Below, piece after piece: positions 47,969-63,091 of a stretch of DNA of 64,000 nucleotides. The notes under the pieces were generated by a model, which saw nothing but the letters and a program-made list of their open reading frames with translations, had not been told where the DNA came from and ran no database searches. The position numbers and the translations under genes were made by a program. Numbering within the stretch: the stretch's first letter is position 1; each line of letters begins with the position of its first letter. Origin of the DNA: Halovenus rubra (lineage in GTDB: Archaea; Halobacteriota; Halobacteria; Halobacteriales; Haloarculaceae); the NCBI RefSeq assembly GCF_026586665.1, contig NZ_JAODIY010000004.1, positions 180,120 to 244,119 on the forward strand, in the 5' to 3' direction.

Positions 47969-49015
47969 ATGACAGACGAGGACAAAATACGAGGGGCGCT
48001 TCAGTCGGTTGAGGACCCACTGCTGGGAGACGACATCGAATCCCTTGGACTGGTGACCGAGATCGATATTGACGACGAGGCTGAGACAATTGACGTGACA
48101 TTGGGTCTTGGCGCACCGTACTCCCCATCAGAGACGAGTATTGCTGGTCGCGTTCGGGATGTTTTAGATGAGTACGGCTACGACGTTGAACTGACTGCGT
48201 CAGTCGACCGGGGTGTTGACCCTGAGGAAACAGTGTTACCCAACGTCAAGAATATCATTGCCGTCGCCTCCGGGAAAGGCGGTGTCGGAAAAAGTACGGT
48301 CGCCGCGAATCTTGCGGTCGGGTTGGGAGACCTTGGTGCTCGTGTGGGGCTTTTCGATGCCGACGTGTACGGTCCGAACGTCCCGCAGATGATGGGCTCT
48401 GACGACCAGCCACAAGCCACCGAGGAAGAAGAGATTGTCCCGCCAGTTGTCCATGACGTTGAGATTATGAGCATGGAGTACCTGCTCGACGAGAGTGCGC
48501 CGGCCATCTGGCGAGGACCGATGGTTCATAAAGTCCTCACACAGCTCTGGGAAGATGTCCAGTGGGGACGAGGCGGTAACCTGGATTACATGGTTGTTGA
48601 CCTTCCACCGGGAACAGGTGACACACAGTTGACGATGCTTCAGAGCATCCCTGTCTCCGGCGCGGTCATCGTTACGACGCCACAGTCGGTCGCACTTGAC
48701 GACGCAGAGCGTGGGATGGAGATGTTTGCTGAACACGAGACACCCGTTCTTGGCATCGCGGAGAATATGGCGACGTTCGCCTGTCCAGACTGTGGCGGTC
48801 GGCACGATATCTTTGGCTCGGGTGGCGGGGAAGAATTTGCTGAGGAGACAGATATGCCCTTCTTGGGGTCGATTCCCCTCGACCCTGCGGTACGGACAGC
48901 CGACCAACCAATCGTCCTCGAAGACGACGAGACAGCGGATGCTGTGCAGGCGTTTGTCGAGAAGGCAGTTGATATGCAAGGCGTCGTCCACCGACGCCGA
49001 GAAAGCTCGAGCTAG
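47969..49015 (+). CDS. Mrp/NBP35-type Fe-S cluster carrier ATPase
   Basis: P-loop ATPase of the Mrp/ApbC family, 348 residues, that loads Fe-S clusters on apo-proteins. The N-terminal DUF59/MIP18-like part (about 1-85, ALQSVEDPLLGDDIESLGLV) precedes the deviant Walker A ASGKGGVGKSTVAANLAVGL (about 100-120). DADVYGPNVPQMMG and VVDLPPGTGDTQLTML follow, and the cluster-binding CxxC is in FACPDCGG near residue 271. ATG 47960 is an alternative start. Its TAG stop shares CTAG with the stop of the convergent CDF gene. Confidence 0.94.
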   Translation: MTDEDKIRGALQSVEDPLLGDDIESLGLVTEIDIDDEAETIDVTLGLGAPYSPSETSIAGRVRDVLDEYGYDVELTASVDRGVDPEETVLPNVKNIIAVASGKGGVGKSTVAANLAVGLGDLGARVGLFDADVYGPNVPQMMGSDDQPQATEEEEIVPPVVHDVEIMSMEYLLDESAPAIWRGPMVHKVLTQLWEDVQWGRGGNLDYMVVDLPPGTGDTQLTMLQSIPVSGAVIVTTPQSVALDDAERGMEMFAEHETPVLGIAENMATFACPDCGGRHDIFGSGGGEEFAEETDMPFLGSIPLDPAVRTADQPIVLEDDETADAVQAFVEKAVDMQGVVHRRRESSS

Positions 49016-49977
49016 TTCTGTGGCTCGATATAAACAATCTTTACGCGTTTGTCAACCGCTTGGAGCTCTGTTTCTATCTGTCTGATATCTTCGTCCAGAG
49101 CTGCCGTGTCAAGTGATCCGTCGAACTCCACGTCAGCAGTTACGAGAACCTCACCGCTCCCGATGAACATGCTACGGAAATCTTCGATGCCAGTAACAGT
49201 ACTGTGACCACTGATAGCGTCTTTGAGCGAATCTTCGGCTGCTTCTGGAAGACTTTCACCAAGAATGAGTCGTTTGTTCTCGATAGCGAGAAAGACGGCA
49301 AATATCATTAGCAAAATGCCGATGACAACTGCACCAAGCGAATCGTACACCGGATTTTCGGTGAGACGAGTGGCAATGATGCCGCCAAGAGCAACGAGCA
49401 GTCCGACGAGTGCGACAGTGTCTTCGGTAAACGCGGTCAAGGTGGTAAGATCGCTGGTCCGACTGAAGGTCTCACGATAACCTGACCAACCGTGGGTTTC
49501 CATCTGTTCTTTTAGTTCTGCTCGCGCTTTCAGGAAGGCGTAGGTTTCGAACGCGACTGCACCTAGAAGAATAGCAACGACCACCCAGAACGGTTCTATG
49601 GGAAGCTGGATATCAATCGTGAACCCAAGGAACTCGGCCTCACCGGCTTCCATCTCATGGCCGCCCGCCTGTAGCTCAGCGATGCCATGTTTTAGGCTCT
49701 CCCAGCCAGCAACACCGAACAACAGTACCGAGACGAGAAACGCAAAGAAAAATTGCGCCTTTCCGTAGCCAAAGGGATGGACGCGTGATGCACCCCGTTG
49801 GCTGTGTTTGATGCCGATTAATAACAACACCTGGTTGCCAGTGTCTGAAATAGAGTGATACGTCTCGGCTAGCATCGAGGGGCTGCCGGTCAGCAGAAAG
49901 CCAATGAATTTGAGAATGGCGATACCACCGTTCGCTATCATCGCTGCGATGACGACACCCGTACTTCCGCCTGCCAT
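49012..49977 (-). CDS. cation diffusion facilitator (CDF) metal transporter
   Basis: CDF-family transporter of 321 residues exporting divalent metal (Zn, Fe, Mn or similar) in exchange for protons. Six hydrophobic segments; the helix-2 motif AETYHSISDTGNQVLLL holds the HxxxD metal site, and a second site is in FTEDTVALVGLLVALGG. The cytoplasmic C-terminal domain ends VEFDGSLDTAALDEDI. The loop after helix 2 reads RVHPFGYGKAQFFF, typical of the family. The ATG at 49977 is preferred over the upstream frame start at 50007. Metal specificity is not readable. Confidence 0.92.
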   Translation of the reverse strand: MAGGSTGVVIAAMIANGGIAILKFIGFLLTGSPSMLAETYHSISDTGNQVLLLIGIKHSQRGASRVHPFGYGKAQFFFAFLVSVLLFGVAGWESLKHGIAELQAGGHEMEAGEAEFLGFTIDIQLPIEPFWVVVAILLGAVAFETYAFLKARAELKEQMETHGWSGYRETFSRTSDLTTLTAFTEDTVALVGLLVALGGIIATRLTENPVYDSLGAVVIGILLMIFAVFLAIENKRLILGESLPEAAEDSLKDAISGHSTVTGIEDFRSMFIGSGEVLVTADVEFDGSLDTAALDEDIRQIETELQAVDKRVKIVYIEPQN

Positions 49978-50171
49978 ACCACATTTCCAGAGGGCGGTCA
50001 CTAACACCTTTCGACACGAACAACGCTCGCAATGTTGTCAGAAAATAAACTATATATGGCAGACGGCTCAGAGTTGGCAGTTCACAATAGAACGAAATGG
50101 TTTTCGTTCGTCCACACACACCATTTTTTAACGAGCTGTTCCCATGCGATTTACACACGCAGTCAATCGGC

Positions 50172-50178
50172 GGAGGTG
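50172..50178 (+). promoter_or_regulatory. Shine-Dalgarno sequence fixing the mnhE start
   Basis: GGAGGTG lies 15 bases before the GTG at 50187 and selects this GTG over the earlier ATG at 50097. Confidence 0.7.
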
Positions 50179-50186
50179 GAAGGCCG

Positions 50187-51311
50187 GTGCCGGATAACCG
50201 TCTGCTGGTTCCAGTTGCGGAGTCGTCGACACTTCGGCAAACTGTGGAGTACGCGGTCAGGACCGCACTCGAAGGCACTGGTTCCGGATACCTGGAGTTT
50301 GTCTACGTCCACTCGCCTGAAGTCTCAGACGAGCGACTCGGTGACCAAGCCGAGGCGAATATCGAGACAGTCACGGCCCTGTTGGACCGAATTACGGTCT
50401 GGGCTGAAGAAGACGCGGGCGACAACAGTAAAGAGCTGACAGTCGAGTCGACACATGTCGGAAGAGACAGATACCTGTTCAGCCCCGGCGATGTCGGCAC
50501 TGCGCTGGCCGCGGTGGCCAATCGTAATGATATCGAGCGGATGGTGCTCGATCCGGAGTACAACCCCGGTGTCGGCTCGCCACTGCTCCGCCCGCTTGAG
50601 GTCGAGCTTACTCGACTTACCGACGTCCCTGTTGAGGAGGCACCCGTCCAGCGACAGGTCCGTCGTCCGCCGTTGCTCTTGCGGTCATCCTCGATTCAGG
50701 CCGGAGCGCTGTTTTTTGTCTCGTTTATGTTCTATCAAGTGCTTGCCGGAACATTTGGGCTGTTTGACCTCGTTACAGGGGCCATCTCTGGGACAATTGT
50801 TGCAGTCAGTCTCTCCCGTATCACGTTCAACCACGACCCATCAGTCAGCTGGATTGGACGCCTCGCTCGGTTTGTTGTTTTTGTTCCCTACCTGTTCTGG
50901 GAAATCCTCAAGGCCAACGTACTGGTCGCGAAAGTGATACTCCAGCCGGGCCTTCCGATTGAGCCACGGCTCACGCGCGTCGATACGGCTGTCTGGGGAA
51001 GTCTTCCGGTCACAACACTTGCCAACAGCATTACGCTCACACCGGGGACACTCACTGTCCGGGTTGAGGGCCGCTCACTGATGGTGCACACCCTTGTTCC
51101 TGGCGCACGAGAAGACCTGTTCGACGGCGGACTCGAACGAGCTGTTCGGTTCGTGTTTTATGGTCGAAATGCGATGAGCATGCCGACGCCTCGTGAACGA
51201 GACGATACGACAATCTTGCAGCCACGAGACGAATCAAAATCGCTTGAGTCGGATGGTGGACCGCACTCCAGTGGCAAGACTGCTGGTGAGTCGGGAGGTG
51301 ATGAGCAATGA
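50187..51311 (+). CDS. mnhE: Usp-like/MnhE fusion, Na+/H+ antiporter subunit E
   Basis: A 374-residue two-part protein. Residues 1 to about 165 form a soluble Usp-like domain (DNRLLVPVAESSTLRQTVEY, YLEFVYVHSPEV, ERMVLDPEYNPGVGSPLLRP). Residues about 180-340 are the MnhE/PhaE membrane subunit: ALFFVSFMFYQVLAGTFGLF, FVPYLFWEILKANVLVAKVI, SITLTPGTLTVRVEG. The tail is acidic and disordered. The GTG at 50187 has a GGAGGTG Shine-Dalgarno sequence. It leads the nine-gene Mrp-type antiporter operon and overlaps mnhF by 4 bases. Confidence 0.9.
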   Translation: MPDNRLLVPVAESSTLRQTVEYAVRTALEGTGSGYLEFVYVHSPEVSDERLGDQAEANIETVTALLDRITVWAEEDAGDNSKELTVESTHVGRDRYLFSPGDVGTALAAVANRNDIERMVLDPEYNPGVGSPLLRPLEVELTRLTDVPVEEAPVQRQVRRPPLLLRSSSIQAGALFFVSFMFYQVLAGTFGLFDLVTGAISGTIVAVSLSRITFNHDPSVSWIGRLARFVVFVPYLFWEILKANVLVAKVILQPGLPIEPRLTRVDTAVWGSLPVTTLANSITLTPGTLTVRVEGRSLMVHTLVPGAREDLFDGGLERAVRFVFYGRNAMSMPTPRERDDTTILQPRDESKSLESDGGPHSSGKTAGESGGDEQ

Positions 51312-51607
51312 TGCCGATTCTTTTCCTCAGCGGTGACGCTATGACAGACGTGTTCCTGCTGGCTGCGGCGGTGTTTATGTTACTCGCAACAGCGATGCTC
51401 TATCGGGTAATCAAGGGACCGTCTACACAGGACCGCGTGCTCGCGGTGAACGTCCTCGGGACGAACACTGTGGTCGTTTTGGCGTTGCTCGGTGCTGGAC
51501 TCGACGTGCCTTCGTTACTCGACATCGCGCTTGTGTATGCGTTATTGAACTTCTTGATGTCGGTTGCAATTTCGAAGTTTACCGTTGAACAGGGTGGTGT
51601 CCTATGA
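51308..51607 (+). CDS. mnhF: Na+/H+ antiporter subunit MnhF
   Basis: A 99-residue subunit with three membrane helices. The MrpF signature RVIKGPSTQDRVLAVNVLGT lies after helix 1, then VVVLALLGAGLDVPSLLDIA. It overlaps mnhE (ATGA) and mnhG by 4 bases each. GGAGGTG lies exactly 14 bases before its ATG, inside the mnhE tail. It has no known catalytic role alone, but Mrp complexes need it. Confidence 0.93.
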   Translation: MMPILFLSGDAMTDVFLLAAAVFMLLATAMLYRVIKGPSTQDRVLAVNVLGTNTVVVLALLGAGLDVPSLLDIALVYALLNFLMSVAISKFTVEQGGVL

Positions 51608-51978
51608 TTGAAGCTGCCCGTGATGGTGCCATTGTCGCCTTCGTGTTACTTGGCCTGTTCTTTACGTTCGTCTCGACGGCTGGTGTGCTTCGACTCCCAG
51701 ATATTTATTCCAGAGCACACACTGCCTCACAGGCCGACACCCTCGGTGCCGGGTTTACCCTCGCTGCCGTCGCACTTGCAATTGGCTTCGAAACTGGTTC
51801 GTACAAGACGGTCCTGTTGTTGTTCTTTATTTTCATCACCAACCCGACCGCAGCACACGCGATTTCTCGGGCTGCAGAGGAACAGGGCATCGAACCGTGG
51901 ACAACTGATGACGACCAGACTGACGAGGAACTCTACCGTGATTCAAAACTCGAAACTGACGGAGGTGACAACGAATGA
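51604..51978 (+). CDS. mnhG: Na+/H+ antiporter subunit MnhG
   Basis: A 124-residue subunit with three membrane helices: FVLLGLFFTFVSTAGVLRLP, then PDIYSRAHTASQADTLGAGF (the MnhG signature), and FFIFITNPTAAHAISRAA. A soluble acidic tail of about 35 residues follows. Overlaps the neighbours by 4 bases on both sides. Confidence 0.94.
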   Translation: MIEAARDGAIVAFVLLGLFFTFVSTAGVLRLPDIYSRAHTASQADTLGAGFTLAAVALAIGFETGSYKTVLLLFFIFITNPTAAHAISRAAEEQGIEPWTTDDDQTDEELYRDSKLETDGGDNE

Positions 51979-52520
51979 TATCAGCCTTCGAGGCAGCACT
52001 GTTCGTGTTCGTTTTGACGACTGCGCTGGCGACCGCACTCCTGCGAGATATACTCGCAGTTATCATCGTATTTGCGGCGTACAGCCTGGGGATGGCATTG
52101 TTCTATGCCTTCCTGCTTGCTCCCGACGTGGCGATGACAGAGGCGGCTATCGGTGCCGGCGTGACGACACTCCTGTTGTTGCTGGCGCTGGTCAAAACGA
52201 GTCGCCCGGATCTGGACTACTGGCTGGAGCGACCGAACATCTCGGCACTCGTCGTTTTCGGCGCGTTGCTGGTCGTTATCATCTCGACACTGGGCGAGTT
52301 CCCTGCGGTCGGGACTGCAGACGCTCCGATCTGGGAGAACCCTGCCGTGACACAGTACTACATCGAAAACGCCTACAGCGATACTCACGTGACCAATGCG
52401 GTCACGTCAGTGCTAGCTGGCTACCGTGGGTTCGACACCTTCGGCGAGGCAGTTGTTGTCTTTGCTGCTGGTATCGCAACACTGCTTGTCCTTCACAGGG
52501 AGGTGTTTACCCGTGAGTAG
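51975..52520 (+). CDS. DUF4040 subunit (MnhA C-terminal/MnhB N-terminal part)
   Basis: A 181-residue membrane subunit. Its first half matches the DUF4040 segment at the end of MrpA: RDILAVIIVFAAYSLGMALF, LLAPDVAMTEAAIGAGVTTL. Later, GYRGFDTFGEAVVVFAAGIA is the segment that normally joins MrpA to MrpB. So the large MrpA of bacteria is split here, with this gene supplying the C-terminal portion. GGAGGTG lies 14 bases before the ATG. It overlaps mnhG by 4 and mnhB by 8 bases. Confidence 0.9.
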   Translation: MISAFEAALFVFVLTTALATALLRDILAVIIVFAAYSLGMALFYAFLLAPDVAMTEAAIGAGVTTLLLLLALVKTSRPDLDYWLERPNISALVVFGALLVVIISTLGEFPAVGTADAPIWENPAVTQYYIENAYSDTHVTNAVTSVLAGYRGFDTFGEAVVVFAAGIATLLVLHREVFTRE

Positions 52521-53022
52521 CGCCGACTCCTCCAGTGGTGATTCACTCGGGGATGCCACATCAACCTATATCGAGAGCCAGGTCATTATGGTCACCGTCC
52601 GGGTTATTGCGCCGTTCTCGCTCACTTACGGACTGTTCTTGATGTTCCATGGCTCCGGGTCGCCCGGTGGAAGTTTCCAAGGCGGTGCAATTATCGGTGC
52701 AACAGTGCTGATGATTGCGTTCGCGTTCGGTATCGAACCGACCCGTGACTGGATTCAGAACCGAACGCTGGTTGCACTCGCAACAGGTGGTGTCACTACT
52801 TTTGCGATGATTGGGCTCATCCCACTCGCCCTCGGTGGCAACTTCCTCGAATACGAGATGTACAAAGAAGAGTTTGGTATCAAGGCCAAGTGGGGACTGG
52901 AGGCTATCGAAATCGGCGGCGTCGCACCGATAGTTGCCAGTGTCGTTGTGGGGTTGTTCTTCCTCCTTGCTGCCGGAACAATGCAGGACTCCGTTTCCGA
53001 GGAGGTGTCTGGCGATGAGTAG
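52513..53022 (+). CDS. mnhB: Na+/H+ antiporter subunit MnhB
   Basis: A 169-residue membrane subunit with four helices. Signature: APFSLTYGLFLMFHGSGSPG, then GGSFQGGAIIGATVLMIAFA, characteristic of MnhB. The GTG at 52513 overlaps the previous gene by 8 bases and has GGAGGTG 14 bases upstream, which fixes this start. The C-terminus also encodes GGAGGTG for mnhC. Confidence 0.94.
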   Translation: MSSADSSSGDSLGDATSTYIESQVIMVTVRVIAPFSLTYGLFLMFHGSGSPGGSFQGGAIIGATVLMIAFAFGIEPTRDWIQNRTLVALATGGVTTFAMIGLIPLALGGNFLEYEMYKEEFGIKAKWGLEAIEIGGVAPIVASVVVGLFFLLAAGTMQDSVSEEVSGDE

Positions 53023-53449
53023 CGGTTTCGTCGCCGCTGTGGCGGGTTTCTCCACTACGCCGCTCGTGACGGAGCTGTTGACGACTCGCTACACGTACGT
53101 GCTGTTTGCAATCCTGCTGGTGGTCGGGCTGTACATGGTTGTTGCCAGCTCGAATCTCGTGAAGAAGATTATCGGACTAAATCTGTTCCAGTCCGCAATC
53201 TTCCTGTTTTTCGTCTCGACAGCCTATCTACGCGAGTTCAAGGGGGAATCCGGGCAGGTGCCGATTATCCCCAAGAAAGCGGCTGCTTACGACCCCTATG
53301 CCAGCCCGCTCCCACAGGTTATCGTCTTGACCGCAATTGTTGTCGGTGTGGCACTGACTGCGGTTGCCTTGGCACTCATCGTTCGAATCTACGGAGAGTA
53401 CGGAACACTCGACGAAGAGACGCTTCGGGAGGTGCGGGCCGATGACTGA
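53015..53449 (+). CDS. mnhC: Na+/H+ antiporter subunit MnhC
   Basis: A 144-residue NuoK-like subunit with three helices. Motifs: LFAILLVVGLYMVVASSNLV, KKIIGLNLFQSAIFLFFVST, PLPQVIVLTAIVVGVALTAV. The ATG at 53015 overlaps mnhB by 8 bases and has GGAGGTG 14 bases upstream. The longer frame from 52934 overlaps mnhB and is rejected. Confidence 0.94.
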   Translation: MSSGFVAAVAGFSTTPLVTELLTTRYTYVLFAILLVVGLYMVVASSNLVKKIIGLNLFQSAIFLFFVSTAYLREFKGESGQVPIIPKKAAAYDPYASPLPQVIVLTAIVVGVALTAVALALIVRIYGEYGTLDEETLREVRADD

Positions 53450-55058
53450 GGAAGCGCTCCCAGCACTGTTGATTGCAGTCCCGATACTCGGTGCGACCCT
53501 TCCACTCGCCCTCGGACTTGTCCGCCAGCGAATTGGCTGGTGGGTCGCGACGCTCGTTCTCGCTGTCGAGGCAGCAATGGCTTCTTGGATTGCGTACGCG
53601 GTTTATATCGGTGGTGACCGGATCACACACATTCTGGGTGGTGAAACCTTTGGTCGCAAGGAGGTAACTGTCGGCTCGTTCGATACAGAAGGGTTTATTG
53701 TCGGTATCGAACTTGTCGCTGATGCGCTTTCGGGCCTACTCGTGGCGCTCATCGCGTTTGTCTCTCTTGGTGTGCTCGCCTACGCGCGGCGAGCGGGACC
53801 GCGACAGAACACGTTCTATAGTGCGTACCTTCTACTGACTGGGGGGTTAATGGGTCTCGTCCTCACAGGCGACCTGTTCAACATGTTCGTCTTCCTCGAA
53901 ATTGTGGGGCTAATGACCTACGCACTCGTTGCCAGCGACCGCTCGGCGGCATCAGCTGTCGCGGCGCTGAAGTATCTGGTCATCGGGACGACCGGCGCGT
54001 CGATGTATCTCGTCGGTGTTGGTTATCTGTTTGTCCGGACTGGGACACTCAACATGGTTGACACCTCACGCGTACTCGCAGGTGAGCCTGAATGGCTTGA
54101 AGTGACGGGAGCGCTTTACACGGAGCCGCTGGTTGTCGCAAGCTTTGGCTTCATCGCTGTTGGACTGGCGACCAAGACTGCTATCTTCCCGCTCCATACG
54201 TGGCAGCCGGGTGCGTACTCCGAAGCGCCAGATTCGGTGACGGTCCTCATCTCCGCGCTCGTCTCGACGACCAGTGCCTACGCACTCGCTCGCATCACAT
54301 GGGTCGTTTTCACACCCGAGTTCTTCGCTGTGAATGTCAAAGCAACAGAGGCCATCCTCGTATTGGCCGCTTTGAGTGTCGTCATCGGTAGCGTTCTGGC
54401 TGCGATGCAACAGCGAGTCAAGCGAGTGTTTGCGTATTCGTCGGTTGCACAGTTCGGTCTCATCGCGATGGCTATCGGTATCAGTGTCCACCCAGCAGCG
54501 ACGGATACAGCGACGCGCTTTGCGGTGTACGGCGTTGTTATCCATCTCATCGGCCACGCTGTCATCAAGGGTGGGCTGTTCGCGACTGTCGGTGCAATAA
54601 AAAAGAGCACCGGTGCACGGTCTATTGATGAATATGCTGGTCTTGCCACGGAGCGGCCAGTTCTCTCTGGGACGCTTGCTGTCCTTGGGTTCAGTCTCAT
54701 CGGTGTCCCACCGATGATTGGCTTTGTTGGCAAGTGGTATATCGGGTTAGCCGCCGTCAAGGCAGAACTCTGGCCGCTCGTTTTCGTCATCTTCGCCAGT
54801 ACCCTCTTGACGCTTTTGTACGTCGCAAGGTTGCTGGAGAAACTGTATTTCACCCCCCTCTCCGAGACCACCGACACTGCCCAGGAGCCAGCAGTTGCCA
54901 CGGACGGCCGTGGCTCGGTTTCCTTTGGCATGGTTGCACTGGCCGTTACTGCTGCCGTTCTCGCCGTTGGACTCGGGTTCATGGGCGCTGAACTGACCGA
55001 CGCTATCGATCCACTCGTCGATGCAATCCAAGAATCATCGCCGGAGGTACACCAATGA
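53442..55058 (+). CDS. mnhD: antiporter subunit MnhD (NuoN/M-like), copy 1
   Basis: A 538-residue proton/sodium antiporter-like subunit with about 14 helices. Motifs: LTGDLFNMFVFLEIVGLMTY holding the key Glu of helix 5, LPLHTWQPGAYSEAPDSVTV-like FPLHTWQPGAYSEAP, RVKRVFAYSSVAQFGLIAMA (Lys helix), and HAVIKGGLFATVGAIKKSTG. GGAGGTG lies 14 bases before the ATG. It belongs to the Nqo12-14/MrpA/D family. The C-terminal cytoplasmic stretch is acidic. Confidence 0.93.
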   Translation: MTEEALPALLIAVPILGATLPLALGLVRQRIGWWVATLVLAVEAAMASWIAYAVYIGGDRITHILGGETFGRKEVTVGSFDTEGFIVGIELVADALSGLLVALIAFVSLGVLAYARRAGPRQNTFYSAYLLLTGGLMGLVLTGDLFNMFVFLEIVGLMTYALVASDRSAASAVAALKYLVIGTTGASMYLVGVGYLFVRTGTLNMVDTSRVLAGEPEWLEVTGALYTEPLVVASFGFIAVGLATKTAIFPLHTWQPGAYSEAPDSVTVLISALVSTTSAYALARITWVVFTPEFFAVNVKATEAILVLAALSVVIGSVLAAMQQRVKRVFAYSSVAQFGLIAMAIGISVHPAATDTATRFAVYGVVIHLIGHAVIKGGLFATVGAIKKSTGARSIDEYAGLATERPVLSGTLAVLGFSLIGVPPMIGFVGKWYIGLAAVKAELWPLVFVIFASTLLTLLYVARLLEKLYFTPLSETTDTAQEPAVATDGRGSVSFGMVALAVTAAVLAVGLGFMGAELTDAIDPLVDAIQESSPEVHQ

Positions 55059-56734
55059 CAGAAGCAGTCGTCACTGATATTCGACCACTGGCCGCCGTGC
55101 TCGTCTCGGCAGTCTCGGTCGTGTTGATTGTCGCGTCGCATCGCTACCCGAATATCCGCGAGTCGTGGTCGATACTTGCAGCGCTTACGAAGTTCGGCCT
55201 CATCGCGAGCATGGTCCCCGGCGTACTCGACGGGACCGAATATGAAGCGTCACTCGGTGAGTTTGTCTACGGTATTGAGTTCGCTCTGAAGGCTGACGCG
55301 CTTGGCATGATATTTGCGCTACTGGCCAGCTTTCTCTGGATTTTCACAGCCTTCTACGCGGCGGGATATATGCGTGGCCTCGACGAGGGAAACCAGACCC
55401 GCTTTTTCGCCGCCTTTGCTGCCAGCCTTTCGGCAGCCGTCGGTATCGCGTTCGCGCGCAATCTACTGACAATTTTTGTCTTCTACGAACTTCTCTCGGT
55501 CGCTACGTATCCGCTCGTCGCCCACGACGGAAGTAAAGAAGCTAGAGTGGCGGGTCGGAAGTACCTCGCGTACACGTTCTTTGGCGGCGGGTTGCTCGTC
55601 TTGGGTGGCACTGCACTAGTGTTTGCCATGGCTGGAACGACAGAGTTTGGGGCAACTGCTACGCATCTCGCCGACTCCAACGCCGCCCTCGCTCGGGCAG
55701 CGTTCGGTCTGCTCGCAGCCGGGTTCGGCGTCAAAGCTGCCCTGATGCCGGTTCACTCCTGGCTGCCTGACGCGATGGTCGCGCCGACGCCTGTTTCGGG
55801 TCTCCTCCACGCCGTGGCAGTCGTCAAAAGCGGTGTCTTCGGTATCGCACGCCTCGTTTTGGAGGTATACGAGCCACAACTTGTCGGTGATCTCGGTGTC
55901 GGCATCGTGCTTGCTATTGTTGCCGCAATCACGCTCACGGTGGCGAGCATCATTGCGCTTCGCGCTGACCGTCTCAAGCGTCGGCTAGCGTACTCGACGA
56001 TCAGCCAACTCTCGTATATCGTGCTTGGTTTGGGACTTGTCGGGCCTGCTGCTGTTGCGGGTGCAGGCCTTGAAAATGTCATCAAGGGTGGACTGCTCCA
56101 TATCCCAGCTCACGCGTTTATGAAACTCACCCTCTTTTTCTGTGCGGGGATTATCCACGTCGAAACCCACACGGACTACATCAGCGAGATGGACGGTATC
56201 GGCAAGCGGATGCCACTGACGATGACAGCGTTTGGCATCGCTGCAGCAGGAATGGCCGGTATTCCGCTGGTCGCTGGGTTCGTCAGTAAGTGGTTTATCC
56301 TTATCGGCGCTGTTCAGGCGAGCCAGTCCGCATTTGCTGTTGTCTTACTCATCTCTGGTGTCCTCAACATCGCGTACTTCTGGCCTATCGTCTACGGCGC
56401 GTTCTTCGAGTCCTACGACAGTGCCGACTCGAAGCCACTCGTCGAGGGGCCACTTGGGGGCCACAGCCCAAAGCAGGCTGCAACCGACGGTGGCTCCGAA
56501 CAGGACCCGGGCGGCGACGCTGAGTCCCACGACACGCACGTTGAGGAGGGTCACCATGGTGGCCCCGGTGACGGCGGCTGGGACCGCGTTGGCTGGACTG
56601 GTGATGAGGGGTCATGGCTCATGCTTGGGCCGATACTGCTCATTGCCGCCGGTGCTGTCGTTCTTGGTATCGTGCCCGACGCCGCTGTGTTCCTCCAACT
56701 TATCGAAGATGTCGCTCAGGGGGTGATGGCCTAA
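55055..56734 (+). CDS. antiporter subunit MnhD-like (NuoM-like), copy 2
   Basis: A 559-residue antiporter-like subunit. Motifs: RNLLTIFVFYELLSVATYPL (Glu helix 5), LMPVHSWLPDAMVAPTPVSG, RLKRRLAYSTISQLSYIVLG, HAFMKLTLFFCAGIIHVETH. Between residues about 462 and 520 a soluble loop rich in His, Gly, Asp and Glu (HDTHVEEGHHGGPGDGG) interrupts the C-terminal helices; this loop is unusual. GGAGGT lies 12 bases before the ATG. It overlaps copy 1 by 4 bases. Confidence 0.92.
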   Translation: MTEAVVTDIRPLAAVLVSAVSVVLIVASHRYPNIRESWSILAALTKFGLIASMVPGVLDGTEYEASLGEFVYGIEFALKADALGMIFALLASFLWIFTAFYAAGYMRGLDEGNQTRFFAAFAASLSAAVGIAFARNLLTIFVFYELLSVATYPLVAHDGSKEARVAGRKYLAYTFFGGGLLVLGGTALVFAMAGTTEFGATATHLADSNAALARAAFGLLAAGFGVKAALMPVHSWLPDAMVAPTPVSGLLHAVAVVKSGVFGIARLVLEVYEPQLVGDLGVGIVLAIVAAITLTVASIIALRADRLKRRLAYSTISQLSYIVLGLGLVGPAAVAGAGLENVIKGGLLHIPAHAFMKLTLFFCAGIIHVETHTDYISEMDGIGKRMPLTMTAFGIAAAGMAGIPLVAGFVSKWFILIGAVQASQSAFAVVLLISGVLNIAYFWPIVYGAFFESYDSADSKPLVEGPLGGHSPKQAATDGGSEQDPGGDAESHDTHVEEGHHGGPGDGGWDRVGWTGDEGSWLMLGPILLIAAGAVVLGIVPDAAVFLQLIEDVAQGVMA

Positions 56735-60867: not shown

Positions 60868-62594
60868 GGTATCACCCCAAAGACTGCATGGAATAACCCA
60901 GTGAGGAAGCTACTGGTATCGCCGATAAACGTGGTCACTGGGCCAAACCAGCCGTTTCCAGAGACAATTGCTGCAATCGGGAGTGTGTAAGTGAGAAGAA
61001 TTAGCCCGATTGCGATAGCGGTCCACAACCGGAAGTTTTCGAGGACTGCAGGGGCGTGTTCCGGACCCGAAAGAGCTGGCGGAATTGTGTCTGGCGTCGG
61101 TGCATCTTTATCAGCGAAATTGAACCACGACAAGAGAATGTGTGCTGCAAACAGCAGTAGTGAGACAACCAGCAGCACAGAGCCCAGCGCAATCTGGGCG
61201 TGCAGTTCGCTAATCGTTCCAAGCGATGTCTCGAAGGTCACACCATCGTAGAATGGGTCTGCGGTTCGCCGTGGCTCACCAGCTAACCCGATGCGGTGCA
61301 TCGCGTTCGACATGAACACCATTCCGATAAACCACACGACGACCTGAACGAGACCGAGGCGCTTGCTGAACACTTTGTGGCCTGTAATCTTCGGGAGGAA
61401 CCAGTATGTAGACGCCATAAACGACAGCGCTACGGCGGTCCCGACAGTGAGGTGGAAGTGACCGACAATCCAGAGTGTATTGTGAACGAGGTAGTTGAAG
61501 TTCATACCTGCGTTTACCATCCCGGAGAAGCCTGCTGCGGCAAACATCAGTGCTGCCAGAGCCATGCCAGTAAACGCCGGGCGGTTCCACGGCAAGTCAG
61601 TGAGCCATCGGAAATAGCCAGAGCCACCACGCTGACGTGCACCGTGTTCGATGCTTGCCACAACGGTAAAGGCTGTTAGCAGACTGGGCAACAGCAAGAA
61701 CATCGTATTCGTCATTGCCAAGAATTTGAACCCTTCTGAGATACCGGGGTCCACGTACTGGTGATGTATACCAGTTGGCACCGAAAGCACCAAGAAGAGA
61801 ACGAACACGATGCGTGCAAGCGGGTCACTGAACAAGCGGCCGCCCGCGAGTTTGGGAAGGATGACATACCACATCATGTACACCGGCATCAGCCAGAAGT
61901 ACACGACCGGGTGGCCAAAGAACCAGAATAGCGTCCGTGTTAGCAGTGGATTCACGCCACCGACAAGACCGAGTTGCCACGGTAACAAAAAGAAAATAAC
62001 AGCGATAGCAACACCGGCGGAAGCGAGATACCACATAAGCATCGTCGTCAACACCATGAATGTCCGCAGCGGTGTCTTCTCACCACGGTTCTTCTGTTTC
62101 CAGGCCCACCACGAGCGGAACCAGTCGATGCCTGCAAGCCAGGTGCCGATAATGAACACAGCAAGCCCGGCATAAAACAGTGGATGTGCCTCAAGGGGCG
62201 CATAGAACGTGAACAGTACGTCTGCACTGATTTCTGTCTGATCGATAAATCCACCGAGGATCGGGACCGCGGCCATAATCGAGCCAAGAACCATCAGAGC
62301 ATACCAAAGTTTCGTAAACCGAATATCCTCTGACGGACGGTCGAGGCTGTCAGTTACTGCCCACTGGAAGAACCCGACCAAAAAGAAGATACTAAATAGG
62401 ATAGCAAGCGAGACACCATGAAGCGTCAACACCGTGTAGTATGTCGAATCGTCGATAACTTGTACGTAACCGGTCCGGTGCAACGCCTGAATAAGTCCCA
62501 TCACGCCACCGAGAAGTAGCGCGACAAACGAACTTGCGAGGGCAGCCCTGACAATTCCAGCCTCATTGGGATACTCGTGGGCGAACACCCCCAT
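60864..62594 (-). CDS. cbaA: ba3-type cytochrome c oxidase subunit I
   Basis: Heme-copper oxidase catalytic subunit, 576 residues, about 13 helices. The Cu-B/tyrosine segment is FGHPVVYFWLMPVYMMWYVI, the B-family form in which His and Tyr sit four apart. A low-spin heme His is in LTLHGVSLAILFS, Cu-B histidines in TGIHHQYVDPG, and heme ligands in GHFHLTVGTAVALSF. This matches Thermus ba3 and haloarchaeal CbaA. GGAGGTG in the end of cbaB lies 14 bases before the ATG. Quinol or halocyanin donor not resolvable. Confidence 0.96.
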   Translation of the reverse strand: MGVFAHEYPNEAGIVRAALASSFVALLLGGVMGLIQALHRTGYVQVIDDSTYYTVLTLHGVSLAILFSIFFLVGFFQWAVTDSLDRPSEDIRFTKLWYALMVLGSIMAAVPILGGFIDQTEISADVLFTFYAPLEAHPLFYAGLAVFIIGTWLAGIDWFRSWWAWKQKNRGEKTPLRTFMVLTTMLMWYLASAGVAIAVIFFLLPWQLGLVGGVNPLLTRTLFWFFGHPVVYFWLMPVYMMWYVILPKLAGGRLFSDPLARIVFVLFLVLSVPTGIHHQYVDPGISEGFKFLAMTNTMFLLLPSLLTAFTVVASIEHGARQRGGSGYFRWLTDLPWNRPAFTGMALAALMFAAAGFSGMVNAGMNFNYLVHNTLWIVGHFHLTVGTAVALSFMASTYWFLPKITGHKVFSKRLGLVQVVVWFIGMVFMSNAMHRIGLAGEPRRTADPFYDGVTFETSLGTISELHAQIALGSVLLVVSLLLFAAHILLSWFNFADKDAPTPDTIPPALSGPEHAPAVLENFRLWTAIAIGLILLTYTLPIAAIVSGNGWFGPVTTFIGDTSSFLTGLFHAVFGVIP

Positions 62595-63091
62595 CAGGCA
62601 TCACCTCCAAACTCGTCTTCAGGGACAACTTGGATTTGCCCCTCCATTTCGTGATGGAGGCTTCCACAGTACTCGTGACAGACGAACCCATACGTCCCGG
62701 ACTCGTCGAATTCAACCGTTATCTCCGTTATTTGACCAGGAATAATCATTGAATTTACGTTTGTTCCAGCAATGTTGAACCCGTGTGTCACATCACTGGC
62801 AGTCATATAGAACGTCACTGTACTACCTTCCGGAATCTCGATATCGTTGGGAATAAACGACGGGTGAACTGCAATCATGTTCACCTCGAACTCTCCATCC
62901 CCGACCTGGTGTACACCAGTATCGCCAAACCGCTCGTGGTCGCTGAGGTTATTCGGGTCAATGGTTCCGCCATCATCGTCGACCATTTCGATGCCGGCTC
63001 CGACGGCACCGTACGCAACGGTTCCAATAAACGCGACGATTAACAGCACTGCAACGCCGAACCAGATTTTCTCGTATCTGTGTATCTCCAT
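62594..63091 (-). CDS. cbaB: ba3-type cytochrome c oxidase subunit II (CuA)
   Basis: CuA-carrying subunit, 165 residues. One N-terminal membrane anchor (IWFGVAVLLIVAFIGTVAYG) and an external cupredoxin domain. The CuA ligands are readable: His in SDVTHGFNI, Cys138, Cys142, His146 and Met149 in CHEYCGSLHHEM. The ATG at 63091 starts 2 bases after the cbaD stop; a GTG six bases earlier is possible. Ends TGATG with cbaA. Confidence 0.96.
   Translation of the reverse strand: MEIHRYEKIWFGVAVLLIVAFIGTVAYGAVGAGIEMVDDDGGTIDPNNLSDHERFGDTGVHQVGDGEFEVNMIAVHPSFIPNDIEIPEGSTVTFYMTASDVTHGFNIAGTNVNSMIIPGQITEITVEFDESGTYGFVCHEYCGSLHHEMEGQIQVVPEDEFGGDA

Follow-up and report, generated by a model that had tools for sequence, protein, structure and literature searches.

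Five of the eight gene junctions in the Mrp-type antiporter operon of Halovenus rubra carry the sequence GGAGGTG, with its first G exactly 14 nucleotides (nt) before the start codon of the following gene and within the 3' end of the preceding one. The operon was analysed in a 64,000-nt stretch of contig NZ_JAODIY010000004.1 (positions 180,120 to 244,119), referred to here as the window. These sites are very probably full Shine-Dalgarno (SD) motifs that assist termination-reinitiation at overlapping genes, the pairing being predicted from sequence and the reinitiation step being inferred from published work. All five clearly illustrate, in a natural operon, a mechanism already published for haloarchaea, and the pattern is neither due to chance nor peculiar to the Mrp operon. 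The newer point concerns mnhE, the first antiporter gene. It seems to be launched likewise, from a tiny unannotated leader open reading frame (ORF) that is kept in most related species.

GGAGGTG at the overlapping junctions

The Pfam gene order is E, F, G, an MbhD+MbhE-type gene, B, C, and three D-like subunits, that is, Mrp-type subunits of one complex, all on the plus strand. The first site (51294-51300) precedes mnhF (PF04066; 51308-51607, ATG at 51308), which overlaps mnhE (PF01899; 50187-51311, GTG start at 50187) by 4 nt. The second (51961-51967) lies before the gene with MbhD and MbhE (DUF4040) domains (PF13244 and PF20501; 51975-52520, ATG at 51975), which overlaps mnhG (PF03334; 51604-51978) by 4 nt. 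The remaining three are followed by 8-nt overlaps: 52499-52505 before mnhB (PF04039; 52513-53022, GTG start at 52513), 53001-53007 before mnhC (PF00420; 53015-53449, ATG at 53015), and 53428-53434 before mnhD (PF00361; 53442-55058, ATG at 53442). Each of the eight junctions has an overlap of 1, 4, or 8 nt and falls within the distance of -8 to +10 nt associated with reinitiation. The three junctions lacking the full motif are those of mnhF with mnhG (4-nt overlap; only GGTGGTG, at 11 nt), of mnhD with the second D-like gene (PF00361; 55055-56734; 4-nt overlap; GGAGGT at 55043-55048, 12 nt before the start, read as GGAGGTA), and of the second with the third D-like gene (PF00361; 56734-58548; 1-nt overlap; a weak GGGGTGA). 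The positions and overlaps reported for the five sites by the first-pass annotation, which was made from the sequence alone, were thus reproduced.

The window contains 12 copies of GGAGGTG, an ordinary count given the 8.9 expected; what is not random is where they lie. With the observed coding-strand density of the motif, the probability of at least five of eight junctions sharing one fixed spacing is about 2e-20. The pattern GGAGGTG-N7-ATGA occurs 11 times in the 3.57-Mb genome, four of them in the Mrp operon, and a reversed control pattern does not occur at all. GGAGGTG is richer in this operon than at other overlaps of the sampled genome (5/8 vs 15/124, p = 0.002), the operon having been chosen post hoc. 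The same 14-nt spacing was also found, as the first-pass annotation had stated, before cbaA (COX1, PF00115): the motif is at 62608 to 62602 on the minus strand and the start at 62594, and cbaA overlaps the COX2-type gene upstream by 1 nt.

Predicted Shine-Dalgarno pairing in the genome

Genes were called without SD information in 1.26 Mb of the window's genome and in 0.4 Mb of a same-genus genome (G001); the gene calls and start assignments are those of this analysis. Pairing with the anti-SD was regarded as strong at a predicted energy of -8 kcal/mol or below. Genome-wide, the commonest overlaps were 4, 1, and 8 nt. Strong pairing was predicted for 58% of 132 overlapping genes and for 6% of 404 leading genes in the window's genome (p = 1.5e-35), and a control stretch 5' of the overlapping genes gave 8%. 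The corresponding values for G001 were 66% of the overlapping and 10% of the leading genes.

The 3' tail of the 16S rRNA, ...GGATCACCTCCT-3', is complementary to the GGAGGTG sites. It was read in two relatives, G007 of the same genus and G030 of the same family, because no 16S rRNA gene was found in the window's own assembly (98.7% complete). A match to GGATCACCTCCT in contig C4 of that assembly had no Rfam match and was rejected as not rRNA. It should be mentioned that G030 (70% G+C) was left out of the overlap statistics, as the gene caller gave very few overlaps there.

This pairing suggests how the junctions might work. A ribosome translating the upstream gene would pause or be held through pairing of GGAGGTG with the 16S tail, would terminate just beyond the next start codon, and would then restart at that start codon. 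The proposal of the first-pass annotation that the sites serve termination-reinitiation is supported both by the genome-wide pairing and by experiments in Haloferax (PMC6728339, PMC10666635). An equal supply of subunits through these sites may follow, but this we only infer.

The strength and the spacing of the motifs would also fit de novo initiation in the bacterial manner, in which each motif attracts free ribosomes regardless of upstream translation. Such initiation requires SD motifs before leading genes, and only 6% of the 404 leading genes have one, against 58% of the overlapping genes. Furthermore, the SD motif is reportedly inactive for initiation in the 5'-untranslated regions of Haloferax volcanii (PMC3986360), and stop codons introduced upstream abolished downstream translation in the H. 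volcanii pairs tested (PMC6728339). De novo initiation at these junctions is thus improbable.

Programmed frameshifting stimulated by the SD motif, so as to fuse adjacent subunits, seems hardly credible here. Internal SD-like motifs near overlaps are known to stimulate frameshifting in some bacterial genes, as is mentioned in PMC3986360. However, a slippery-site search found no X_XXY_YYZ heptamer at any of the eight junctions, and no single frameshift could serve them, because the overlaps, of 4 and 8 nt, place starts and stops in different phases relative to one another.

Selection on the motif across Mrp operons

The junctions were compared in 71 Mrp operons. GGAGGTG was found at 10 to 17 nt in 227 junctions, whereas 26.3 were expected when codons were reshuffled with the protein held fixed. 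Gly-Gly at -14 is spelled GGAGGT in 44 of 82 cases, GGA and GGT making up 9% and 11% of the Gly codons of these genes. Glu-Val in the 8-nt overlaps is spelled GAGGTG in 67 of 72 cases, GTG making up 27% of the Val codons. Judging from this codon choice, selection on the motif is shown here to act at the nucleotide level.

These data bear on the idea that the motif arises incidentally from conserved C-termini (REV..., GG...) or by chance. The motif does encode C-termini such as (R/E)EV and GGD, and one of its reading phases (phase 2) is common in gene interiors. Nevertheless, the reshuffled codons account for 26 of the 227 occurrences, and at the junction before mnhB the motif moves from 14 to 12 nt as the overlap goes from 8 to 4 nt, remaining near the start codon. 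An origin in protein constraint or chance is therefore extremely unlikely.

Several points weigh against assigning the junctions to SD-assisted reinitiation. Three junctions of the same operon lack the full motif. In H. volcanii, the effect on reinitiation of removing the SD motif ranged from -80% to an increase (PMC6728339), which means that output is not predictable from a strong motif alone. In addition, the reshuffle counts overstate significance because the relatives are not independent; owing to this kinship, the figures are strong but are not formal probabilities.

Spacing and codon phase

The spacing of exactly 14 nt, which the first-pass annotation had stressed, is not a special code but ordinary SD geometry (first G 12 to 15 nt before the start) filtered by codon phase. 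At the same junctions, relatives use 12, 14, or 15 nt. In the 4- and 1-nt overlaps of the 71 operons, the first G is at 11 nt in 12 cases, at 12 in 57, at 13 in none, at 14 in 44, at 15 in 34, at 16 in one, and at 17 in two. The 8-nt overlaps have it at 11 nt in five cases, at 13 in seven, and at 14 in 64, with none at 12 or 15.

This distribution is explained by the reading of the motif in the upstream gene. The counts in phases 0, 1, and 2 are 41/0/96 in gene interiors, 65/1/161 at the junctions of the 71 operons, and 12/0/13 at overlaps outside the Mrp operon. Two readings are allowed, GGA-GGT-G (Gly-Gly) and xxG-GAG-GTG (Glu-Val), whereas xGG-AGG-TGx is avoided (0/137, 1/227, and 0/25, respectively). 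Because this third phase is avoided, 13 is missing at the 4- and 1-nt overlaps, 12 and 15 are missing at the 8-nt overlaps, and 14 is the commonest spacing. The junction before mnhB illustrates the rule across genera: an 8-nt overlap has the motif at 14 and a 4-nt overlap at 12, and Glu-Val is encoded by both. The phase rule rests on related genomes. The earlier suggestion that the motif constrains the encoded C-termini is supported.

Putative leader ORF upstream of mnhE

The gene 5' of mnhE (49012-50007) is oriented oppositely, so that mnhE is a leading gene, for which an SD motif would not be expected in these organisms. It carries GGAGGTG at 50172-50178, 15 nt before its GTG start at 50187, as had been reported. 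However, this site does not fit the reading of mnhE as a plain leading gene that the first-pass annotation had implied. The motif is within an overlapping upstream ORF (uORF), absent from that annotation, of 17 codons (MRFTHAVNRRRWKAGAG; 50144-50197), which extends 11 nt into mnhE. About 40 nt 5' of this uORF is a BRE/TATA-like (transcription factor B recognition element/TATA) sequence, ACGAAATGGTTTTCG (50092-50106), which is also present in relatives and presumably functions as a promoter. ATG 50097 was rejected as the start of mnhE: it is inside the element just described, and the alignment of relatives supports GTG 50187 instead, a position kept in near relatives.

Equivalents of the uORF were sought in 141 distinct upstream regions of mnhE from the order, falling into 79 sequence clusters, some of the mnhE starts being uncertain. 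An ATG-initiated ORF ending 1 to 14 nt inside mnhE was counted. Such a uORF is present in 98 of the 141 loci when the start nearest the alignment is taken, and in 107 when other in-frame starts are allowed, corresponding to 46 to 52 of the 79 clusters. The same test on leading genes of three genomes gave 70 of 1144, about 6%; against this background the value of 46/79 has p ~1e-30. The overlaps with mnhE are 1, 4, 8, 11, or 14 nt across the loci, with 11 nt in Halovenus-like, 8 nt in Halorubrum, and 1 nt in Haloferax sequences, and the peptides differ between genera. The mnhE start is GTG in 70 of the 107 loci bearing a uORF.

The synonymous and non-synonymous differences gave no sign of selection on the uORF peptide beyond off-frame controls. 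The SD motif inside the uORF is in the phase that real genes avoid, both in the window and in several relatives. Taken together, these two observations suggest that the uORF is useful as a device and not for its product.

An AT-rich box is found 38 ± 3 nt 5' of the uORF ATG in 88 of the 107 loci, although the region searched was defined from that ATG, which makes such a distance more likely to emerge. Haloarchaeal TATA boxes are located about 27 nt before the transcription start. If this distance applies here, transcription would start approximately 10 nt before the uORF ATG.

The occurrence of equivalents far above background suggests that the whole operon may be one reinitiation chain. The transcript would begin about 10 nt before the AUG of the uORF of about 17 codons. 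Ribosomes would load at the uORF in a near-leaderless manner, restart on mnhE via the SD motif in the uORF, and then reinitiate serially along the operon. On balance, we slightly favour the view that translation of the Mrp operon in haloarchaea begins at a very short leader ORF whose own sequence is immaterial, and proceeds by serial reinitiation throughout.

It is possible, with a lower but still appreciable probability, that the uORF is incidental and that mnhE, unlike the genes behind it, is translated from a normal leader of 50 to 60 nt. A uORF of this kind is found by chance in about 6% of leading genes, amino-acid conservation of the peptide does not exceed that of off-frame controls, and roughly a quarter to a third of the mnhE loci have no uORF at the assigned start. 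Against this, the uORF recurs in 46 of the 79 upstream-sequence clusters, with overlaps and peptides that vary by genus, and the promoter-like box is positioned relative to its ATG.

Strong SD motifs and overlapping uORFs also tend to occur together at other leading genes. In two genomes, an overlapping uORF accompanies 11 of 62 leading genes with a strong SD motif and 45 of 822 others (p = 0.001), composed of 7/42 vs 36/654 in the window's genome and 4/20 vs 9/168 in G001. More generally, strong SD motifs at leading genes in these genomes may thus be owed to overlapping uORFs.

Should the leader ORF prove real, conventional initiation would be used by none of the genes in the Mrp operon. Short overlapping uORFs would then enable haloarchaea to start first genes with SD motifs and GUG codons, and annotation pipelines would be overlooking such uORFs. 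This would also help to account for the persistence of SD motifs at some leading genes in organisms whose de novo initiation is not SD-driven.

Additional features of the antiporter genes

MnhE has about 170 additional N-terminal residues (LLVPVAES...) ahead of the PF01899 domain (the gene segment considered is 50187-50700). This region is conserved across haloarchaea and has no Pfam match. The MbhD and MbhE domains are joined in one gene (51975-52520), upstream of the three D-like subunits; this gene probably represents the C-terminal part of bacterial MrpA as a separate subunit. On another contig of the same genome (C36, 16420-19245), weak MnhB-like and MnhE-like matches point to a further, divergent cluster of the Mrp/Mbh type.

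Comparison with known systems

A report of the mnhE uORF was not found in the literature searched; Haloferax ribosome-profiling and small-proteome work was outside that search, and an earlier report there is possible. Babski et al. (2016) sought uORFs of H. volcanii only in leaders of 150 to 250 nt, and their Table 2 does not contain mnhE (PMC4983044). Like their uORFs of 15 to 31 codons, the one described here is a short ORF upstream of a normal gene. Unlike them, it is about 40 to 56 nt upstream, overlaps the start, and has the SD motif inside.

An adaptation of the upstream gene end to the SD motif of the next gene was described by Palleja et al. (2009), who found that the stop codon and the spacer adapt and who excluded overlapping genes (PMC2784483). 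The adaptation is similar here, but the genes overlap.

Experiments by Huber et al. (2019, 2023) show that such overlaps are translated by termination-reinitiation (PMC6728339, PMC10666635). In the earlier work, coupling was strict in nine H. volcanii pairs, seven SD mutants revealed contributions from strong to negative, and haloarchaea were listed as using SD motifs at overlaps and not at leading genes (PMC6728339). In the later work, distances of -8 to +10 nt were tied to subunits of heteromeric complexes (PMC10666635). The genome analysed here likewise has SD motifs mainly at overlaps and rarely at leading genes. It differs in that an experiment on the Mrp operon was not seen among theirs, and in that the SD effect there was gene-specific.

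The closest precedent is the work of Kramer et al. (2014) on H. volcanii, in which the extended motif GGAGGTGA near gene ends precedes distal operon genes (PMC3986360). Their 8-nt motif occurs exclusively with a 6-nt spacer, which puts its first G 14 nt before the start codon; for shorter motifs, the preferred spacers are 4 and 6 nt, and re-initiation was proposed (PMC3986360). A spacer of 5 nt is depleted, because it places UGA in frame in 4-nt overlaps (PMC3986360). The motif GGAGGTGA, the spacing, and the location inside the upstream ORF are the same in the operon of H. rubra. The view implied in the first-pass annotation, that uniform strong sites are surprising for haloarchaea, is therefore not supported; its reading of the sites as SD motifs for reinitiation and the constraint on the C-termini are supported. 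The present case differs in concerning another genus, in extending the phase rule to the 7-nt motif without UGA and to 8-nt overlaps, and in tracing that rule across one operon in 71 loci. Since the motif, the spacing, and the mechanism had already been published, the Mrp operon is best seen as a further case of a known mechanism, and a particularly regular one.
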